Shown one piece after another: positions 32,019 through 52,102 of a stretch of 64,000 nucleotides of DNA. Below the pieces are notes generated by a model that saw nothing but the letters and a program-made list of their open reading frames with translations, did not search any database and had not been told where the DNA came from. The stretch is from Dehalobacter sp. GTDB taxonomy: Bacteria > Bacillota > Desulfitobacteriia > Desulfitobacteriales > Syntrophobotulaceae. Position numbers and translations under genes: made by a program. Within the stretch, counting starts at the first letter, position 1, and each line of letters opens with the position of its first letter. The stretch covers positions 124,001-188,000 of the forward strand of contig JAMPIU010000073.1 in the NCBI GenBank assembly GCA_023667845.1, given 5' to 3'.

Positions 32019-32227
32019 TTTTAGTTTCTCCTTTAACTATCTTCAGAATTTATCCGTACGCGTATAAACATCATTAATGAGTTATACGAATTTTAGCAGA
32101 TTCCTCTGCTAAATCAAGAACCATTTATCATTTGGCACCAGAATAAAGAATAATTTTCCAAATAACCCCTGTAGAACTTGAAAGCGATGTGTTACAATGG
32201 TTCTATGACCGAAATATCAATCGAATA

Positions 32228-32328
32228 GGGATACAGGAGCAACGACAATGGCAAACTTGGTGAAAGCCAGGGACGCAAAGCTATGGGTCTTCCAGAATAA
32301 TTCTGATGACTGCCAGGCCACCGAATCC
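32228..32328 (+). ncRNA. Cyclic di-GMP-I (GEMM-I) riboswitch
   Basis: The core GGCAAAC, then a hairpin CTTGG-TGAAAG-CCAGG, then GGGACGCAAAGC, then a longer arm and TGCCAGGCCACCGA match the GEMM-I aptamer. GGAT (32229-32232) and ATCC (32325-32328) can close the outer helix. It stands directly upstream of a c-di-GMP phosphodiesterase gene, so the enzyme's expression would respond to its own substrate. As I recall, the GG before CAAAC favours c-di-GMP over the cGAMP-selective variant. Confidence 0.87.
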
Positions 32329-32346
32329 GCTCAGGTTTGTTTTGAA

Positions 32347-32377
32347 TGTCGCCATGCAATCTGCTGGTGATTTTTTT
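32347..32377 (+). terminator. Possible expression-platform terminator of the riboswitch
   Basis: TCGCCA (32349-32354) can pair with TGGTGA (32365-32370), followed by seven Ts. Short stem with one wobble, so modest. Lies between aptamer and start codon. Confidence 0.5.
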
Positions 32378-32420
32378 GTTGCTTCAGCCAGCACTGATTT
32401 ATTGGAAAGGAAGATTACAA

Positions 32421-33482
32421 TTGCGTCAGGTAAGTGTAAACCGGCTTCAAAAGGGAGACGTGTTGGGAAGAACCATCTTCTCGCATAACGGTCGTTCATT
32501 GCTTGGAAAAGGAGTCACGCTGACCCAGCCATATATCGACCGGTTAAAAGAACTGGGCATTAGTATTGTCTATGTGGACGATGACGAAACCAAGGATATC
32601 GTTATTGAGGATGTTATTTCCGAGGAAAACAGGCGGGAGGCAATGAACTCCATTGAGCATTCAGCGGAAGCGGTACGAATCGGTAAAGACCTCAATGGTT
32701 TTCAGGTAAAAAAGACGGTAAACAACATCATCGGAGACGTCCTATTTCAAGAGAAGATATTTCTAAGCCTGACAGATATGCGGAGCTATGACAATCAAGT
32801 TTATGCGCATTCAGTCAGTGTTTGCGTCCTTTCGACCATTTTGGGCAAAGCTTTGGGGCTGGATAAAGATACCCTGGAGGCACTGGCAGTAGGGGCTTTG
32901 CTTCACGATATCGGGACTGTCAAGCTGCCGAAAGAGCTTGTCGCCAAACGTGAGGCCTTTACTCCGAAGGAAAATGACCTATATCAAACGCATACCATTC
33001 ACGGATATGAAATACTCCGGAATAAACCGGAATTAAACTTATTGAGTGCGCATATTGCTTTGCAGCATCATGAATGGCTGAACGGAAACGGCTATCCCCG
33101 TAAGCTATCCGGCAGGCGCCTTCATGTCTTGGCTCAAATCGTAGGGGTGGCCGACTTCTATGATAATCTGGTCAATGATGGCCCGGGCCACTCCCGGATC
33201 GTCCCGCATGAAGCCTGTGAAATTGTAATGGGATGTGCAAACAAGCTATTCTCCCAGCAATTGGTTGTAACGTTTTTAAAACATATTGCGGCCTATCCGA
33301 CCGGCTGTACAGTTAAACTTAATACAGGTGAGGTTGGGATTGTAGTTGACCAGAATAAAAGTTTGCCGATGCGCCCAATTATCAGGGTATTAATCGCCGA
33401 CAAAGGGCTAGCCCATGTCCAGGCTAAGGAATATAACCTTGTCGAAGATCTTACAACCTTTATTGTATCCATTGTCGAGTGA
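32421..33482 (+). CDS. HD-GYP domain c-di-GMP phosphodiesterase
   Basis: 353 residues. The TTG at 32421 has GGAAAGGAAG upstream; an upstream ATG would run back into the riboswitch platform. The N-terminal domain (about 1-110) resembles the DUF3391-like segment found before HD-GYP. The catalytic domain has HD at 162-163 (LLHDIG) and GYP at 224-226 (HHEWLNGNGYP). It hydrolyses c-di-GMP to pGpG or GMP. No membrane helix. The riboswitch implies feedback control of the second messenger. Confidence 0.9.
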   Translation: MRQVSVNRLQKGDVLGRTIFSHNGRSLLGKGVTLTQPYIDRLKELGISIVYVDDDETKDIVIEDVISEENRREAMNSIEHSAEAVRIGKDLNGFQVKKTVNNIIGDVLFQEKIFLSLTDMRSYDNQVYAHSVSVCVLSTILGKALGLDKDTLEALAVGALLHDIGTVKLPKELVAKREAFTPKENDLYQTHTIHGYEILRNKPELNLLSAHIALQHHEWLNGNGYPRKLSGRRLHVLAQIVGVADFYDNLVNDGPGHSRIVPHEACEIVMGCANKLFSQQLVVTFLKHIAAYPTGCTVKLNTGEVGIVVDQNKSLPMRPIIRVLIADKGLAHVQAKEYNLVEDLTTFIVSIVE

Positions 33483-33499: not shown

Positions 33500-33535
33500 A
33501 AAAAAAACGCCGGCTCAAATGTTTTTTGAGCCGGC
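33500..33535. terminator. Bidirectional terminator after the HD-GYP gene
   Basis: GCCGGCTCAAA (33509-33519) and TTTGAGCCGGC (33525-33535), an 11-bp stem, with an eight-base T-run on the minus strand. Serves convergent genes. Confidence 0.85.
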
Positions 33536-51854: not shown

Positions 51855-52102
51855 GATATCCACACTCCTTTGGACCAATTTCACTTATAGGATATGTGGC
51901 CATGCTTAAAAGTGTACTACCTCAGTCGTTAAGCTTTTTATTATAGAGAAGTACCTTTCTTATTTCCTTTCTTACTTCCCCCAAATGTGTACGCTTCACC
52001 TTGCTGTTGCCAGTTTCGGCGCAACACTCGATATGGGTGGTTGGCTAGACCTTGCCCAGCAAGGACTTTCACCTTGCAGGAAGTACCAAGCTTTGCTTGG
52101 CG

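Follow-up and report, generated by a model that had tools for sequence, protein, structure and literature searches.

In the window, the 64,000-nucleotide stretch of Dehalobacter sp. DNA analysed here, a gene for an HD-GYP domain protein on the plus strand is preceded by a c-di-GMP-class aptamer and an intrinsic terminator. The features of the locus are as follows.

32190–32198, plus strand: candidate extended −10 promoter element, TGTTACAAT (a weak call, by sequence reading)
32237–32240 with 32329–32332, plus strand: outer P1 extension, GAGC with GCUC (RNAfold)
32241–32326, plus strand: c-di-GMP-I (GEMM-I) aptamer (Rfam RF03167 and RF01051)
32243–32247 and 32250–32259, plus strand: predicted antiterminator 5ʹ strand, CGACA and GGCAAACUUG (RNAfold minimum free energy (MFE) structures of transcripts ending at 32358–32366)
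32332–32341 and 32347–32351, plus strand: predicted antiterminator 3ʹ strand, CAGGUUUGUU (genus only) and UGUCG (conserved)
32348–32371, plus strand: intrinsic terminator stem (GUCGCCA.GCA/UGC.UGGUGAU), with a U-tract at 32371–32377 (sequence, RNAfold)
32407–32414, plus strand: ribosome binding site, AAAGGAAG (sequence; conserved in homologs)
32421–33482, plus strand: HD-GYP domain protein, 353 aa (Pfam HD_5, PDB matches 4mcw and 3tm8, alignments, fold)
33509–33535, no strand assigned: terminator hairpin closing the transcription unit, GCCGGCTCAAA...TTTGAGCCGGC (listed by the scan on the minus strand, 11 pairs)

The gene behind the aptamer belongs to the HD-GYP family, as the sequence-only reading had proposed: its product scores 97.1 bits with Pfam HD_5, and the H...HD...H...HH...D metal ligands and the GYP motif are all present. 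The gene starts at TTG 32421 and its stop codon is at 33480–33482. The starts of homologs align with this TTG (GTG in L153, ATG in L154 and L155), and GAAAGGAAG is conserved in homologs a few bases upstream. The 378-codon ORF opens with an ATG at 32346, at the base of the terminator; we rejected it as the start because the homologous ATG and GTG starts match TTG 32421. Both flanking genes (DUF1801 and CoA-binding) are on the minus strand, and the gene is followed by the hairpin terminator at 33509–33535; hence, we consider it a single-gene unit. The candidate promoter, from which transcription is predicted to start near 32205, has no good −35 element and was absent from the list of a simple scan. 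In the congener G004, TGCTACAAT is found upstream of the aptamer.

The aptamer itself is real, with a score far above chance. We searched the window against Rfam, and the whole genome assembly with the RF03167 and RF01051 models. In the window, RF03167 (c-di-GMP-I-GGC) matches 32241–32326 on the plus strand with 66.8 bits against a gathering cut-off of 59 (E 1.3e-13). RF01051 (c-di-GMP-I), the model against which the sequence-only reading had proposed to check its GEMM-I aptamer, matches the same site with 72.1 bits against a cut-off of 35, and the motifs quoted in that reading are all present. The GAAA tetraloop is at 32262–32265 in the RF03167 alignment. The outer P1 extension has both arms identical in G004, and was not retained in the more distant orthologs of the alignment.

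Which ligand does the aptamer recognise? GEMM-I variants that are selective for cGAMP have A at position 20, where this aptamer has G32250. In the RF03167 alignment, the equivalents of Vc2 positions G20, A47 and C92 are G32250, which precedes the P1b pair GC, A32277, which follows the second P1b strand, and C32321, which precedes the P1 3ʹ strand. These are the three ligand-contact positions of class I aptamers (PMC11218506; PMC9049102). Since all three bases are retained, the expected ligand is c-di-GMP rather than cGAMP. The Rfam name with the best E-value in the clan (cmscan) is RF03167, which would suggest that this is a genuine c-di-GMP-I-GGC variant whose ligand specificity is altered. 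However, although the score clears the RF03167 cut-off, the consensus base of that model at position 37 (Vc2 A47) is G, where the window has A32277, and the bit score is higher with RF01051. We take the name “GGC” to refer to the bases at positions 20, 47 and 92, and we rejected that label for this aptamer because of the A at position 47. An altered specificity is very improbable; since A32277 differs from the RF03167 consensus, the binding site appears to be of the ordinary c-di-GMP type, despite the reported Rfam name.

The 3.65-Mb assembly from which the window comes has six GEMM-I aptamers, this one included. Another (L010 1501–3086, contig C51 from 26128 onward) lies with a terminator before a gene for a GGDEF and HD-GYP hybrid. 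Hence, a protein that probably makes c-di-GMP is also under a c-di-GMP switch in this genome; a 5ʹ-strand antiterminator was not found in that platform. Two more (L011 and L012, contigs C53 and C73) precede ion-transporter-like genes, and the gene behind L012 matches the CitMHS/ArsB families, an unusual target for c-di-GMP. Elsewhere in the window, 51955–52069 on the minus strand matches group II intron D1-D4-6 (RF02005, 59 bits against a cut-off of 49), with its middle apparently mostly missing.

Between the aptamer and the gene, the candidate terminator of the sequence-only reading (32347–32377) was borne out as a hairpin at 32348–32371 followed by a U-tract. A simple hairpin scan did not list it, owing to a bulge in the stem. 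In a comparison of 8 orthologs, the stem pairs in 96.4% of cells, while the loop differs in length and sequence. The terminator and the aptamer share no overlap and can coexist; structure prediction and conservation point to an antiterminator that excludes both. The CGACA strand at 32243–32247 is the 5ʹ strand of the aptamer, and its partner, UGUCG at 32347–32351, overlaps the 5ʹ arm of the terminator. When a growing transcript was folded with RNAfold, the structure was aptamer-like at 32345, contained the antiterminator at 32358–32366, and from 32370 onward combined the aptamer with the terminator. When the pairs are enforced, hardly any energy difference separates the two end states (−35.1 and −35.4 kcal/mol), so ligand binding could tip the outcome. 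A 10-bp pairing of 32236–32245 with 32375–32386, which tops the full-length MFE prediction, was rejected as chance because its 3ʹ half is missing in G004. No conserved pairing was found that would sequester the ribosome binding site at 32407–32414.

The CGACA/UGUCG pairing is retained in ten loci from two families, namely the genus of the window (five genomes) and G031, G028, G027, G057 and G029 in another family. Its five pairs are unbroken in all 8 distinct aligned orthologs, the rest of the spacer being unalignable, and CGACAA is invariant in these 8. When the partner is slid along the sequence, pairing falls from 93.8% to 17–59%. The conserved pairs never vary and show no compensatory changes, so the evidence is one of conservation rather than covariation, and each strand may be conserved for some other reason. 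Nonetheless, the terminator stem has little need of the UU(G) that precedes UCGCC, and the conservation of UU(G) therefore favours the antiterminator. The extension through CAGGUUUGUU was not retained outside the genus in the ortholog alignment, and we therefore claim only the CGACA/UGUCG core as general.

A broader comparison covered the GEMM-I loci of the order. In 52 non-redundant loci with a terminator, complementarity between the aptamer 5ʹ strand and the sequence before the terminator exceeds that of dinucleotide shuffles (Fisher p 0.003), and in 65 loci pairing is better between true partners than after partners are swapped (p 0.00095); both values are approximate, since related loci remain and some terminators were mispicked (in L147 a poor hairpin was chosen). 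Individually, the shuffle p value is a modest 0.027 for the window and 0.003 for G004. At three loci (L121, L080 and L099), the place of the antiterminator is taken by a longer helix that differs in sequence. At L099 (genome G034), where the aptamer is followed by an ORF resembling a response regulator and by an HD-GYP gene, the antiterminator is AUAGCUU/AAGCUAU, another sequence in the same layout as in the window.

What is the polarity of the switch? Class I switches of either sign are known, with Bc2 as an ON example, and all seven functional class I switches of C. difficile are OFF switches (PMC6366702). The aptamer of pilM, an ON switch, and its terminator are mutually exclusive, whereas those of Cd1, an OFF switch, can form together and compete with the antiterminator (PMC9262584). 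The layout in the window follows Cd1 rather than pilM. Because the aptamer and terminator coexist, while the antiterminator needs the 5ʹ strand of the aptamer, we predict from this architecture that the switch is very likely OFF. When c-di-GMP is absent, the aptamer 5ʹ strand would pair with sequence before and inside the 5ʹ arm of the terminator, allowing read-through, and the HD-GYP protein would be made at low c-di-GMP. With c-di-GMP bound, the aptamer would retain its 5ʹ strand, the terminator would form and the gene would be silent. The opposite sign, in which c-di-GMP stabilises the antiterminator and raises phosphodiesterase expression in a homeostatic negative feedback, has precedents among class I switches such as Bc2 (PMC6366702), and it fits the arrangement implied by the sequence-only reading, in which the substrate “sets its own degrading enzyme”. 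However, the terminator and aptamer have no strands in common, so ligand binding leaves the terminator unblocked, and the antiterminator depends on strands of the aptamer. We therefore regard an ON switch as improbable.

The computed features (aptamer, terminator, gene, conserved alternative pairing and a conserved loss of the catalytic lysine, described below) are probably explained by a canonical c-di-GMP-I riboswitch that controls a single divergent HD-GYP gene by transcription attenuation, as an OFF switch; ligand identity, polarity and enzyme activity are the parts of this explanation that we infer. Among the closest known systems is Cd1 (Cdi1_3, of the C. difficile flgB operon), which likewise has a class I aptamer, a non-overlapping downstream terminator, antiterminator competition and transcriptional OFF control (PMC9262584, PMC6366702). 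The two differ in their target, which is flagella for Cd1 and an HD-GYP gene in the window, and in the partner of the antiterminator, which is the 3ʹ aptamer-stabilising strand in Cd1 and the conserved 5ʹ strand in the window.

Of the 74 genomes of the order, 62 have at least one GEMM-I aptamer. The riboswitch lies upstream of ten HDIGT orthologs of the window gene, five in the genus and five outside, one of which (L156, genome G057) has an in-frame TAG at codon 69 that could be a sequencing error or decay. No riboswitch was found within 400 bases of two further HDIGT orthologs (L157 and L158), and the K, M or I homologs examined, which are ~55% identical, all lack one. More distant HD-GYP genes are preceded by GEMM-I at no fewer than nine other loci in nine further genomes of the order, most with a terminator. 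The arrangement is thus recurrent and already a known kind, of which the window locus is a further member.

The HD-GYP protein itself was compared with PmGH, the Persephonella marina HD-GYP phosphodiesterase (4mcw). The two share the HD-GYP fold and the GYP motif, and the window protein retains seven of the eight PmGH metal ligands (H130, H162, D163, H191, H216, H217 and D245, the counterparts of H189, H221, D222, H250, H276, H277 and D305), as well as D183 and D308. Four other PmGH residues are substituted: E185 by Gln, K225 by Thr, R314 by Gly and K317 by His, so that the window protein has HDIGT for HDIGK and GPGH for RPYK. The lysine of HDxGK (PmGH K225) is replaced, as HDIGT, in the window and all riboswitch-bearing orthologs checked; all five members of the genus have it, as do L153–L159. 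By contrast, the paralogs and the other HD-GYP proteins behind GEMM-I aptamers mostly have HDxGK. In PmGH, the K225A mutation abolishes activity, whereas R314A and K317A do not (PMC4159591). However, the residue requirements of PmGH are not universal, since VCA0681 is active without D308 (PMC4212101). A fold model of the window protein (mean pLDDT 72) matches HD-GYP and related HD structures, with DvhD among the best partial matches. The window protein has its fold in common with the inactive proteins Bd1817 (3tm8) and DvhD (9rbz), in which active-site residues are partly lost; unlike them, it keeps the HD pair, the double His and the Tyr of GYP. Three orthologs (L154, L155 and L159) have Asn at D305, the last metal Asp, with an intact riboswitch, which hints at a non-catalytic role under c-di-GMP control.

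Together, these substitutions make c-di-GMP cleavage by the window protein doubtful, and we lean slightly towards weak or no activity. Hence, the sequence-only reading stands in that a c-di-GMP-class aptamer and terminator platform controls an HD-GYP gene, but with Thr at K225 the identity of the gene product as a phosphodiesterase is not established, and nor, therefore, is the “direct feedback loop” of that reading. One explanation, a serious one although just short of probable, is that the protein is non-catalytic and binds c-di-GMP, pGpG or GGDEF partners, as an output of the c-di-GMP regulon without feedback. This is consistent with the fact that the clade as a whole has lost catalytic and base-contacting residues, and with the fold match to DvhD, an HD-GYP receptor incapable of c-di-GMP hydrolysis (PMC13090378). 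However, DvhD is without the metal ligands that the window protein has, which suggests that metal chemistry is still selected.

An alternative, possible but rather doubtful, is that the protein is an active phosphodiesterase despite HDIGT. The retained metal ligands, the D183 and D308 equivalents and the GYP motif favour activity, but the clade-wide Thr at K225 and the changes at E185, R314 and K317 do not, and nor does the Asn at D305 in three riboswitch-bearing orthologs, the same change that is present in inactive Bd1817 (PMC8177086). The sequence-only reading gave its loop no sign. Given the OFF polarity predicted from the conserved antiterminator, degradation of c-di-GMP by the protein would make the loop positive (double-negative) rather than homeostatic, and such a loop would sharpen or lock states of low and high c-di-GMP. 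There is a comparable loop in E. coli, where c-di-GMP lowers expression of the phosphodiesterase PdeL and thereby gives positive feedback (PMC5052742). PdeL acts by a protein route, as an EAL-domain transcription factor, whereas the window would use an RNA switch and an HD-GYP protein. We also propose, tentatively and as an unlikely case, an RNA-only double-negative loop in which the HD-GYP protein removes or sequesters c-di-GMP and is silenced by it, a bistable arrangement kept in two families of one order with the catalytic lysine replaced.

What is the significance of an HD-GYP gene under a c-di-GMP OFF switch? With an active protein, this locus would exert positive feedback on a second messenger by compact, RNA-based means. 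With an inactive one, the label “phosphodiesterase under its own substrate” would be misleading, and the gene would instead be an output of the signal. The arrangement recurs across the order, and the sign of the loop is predictable.
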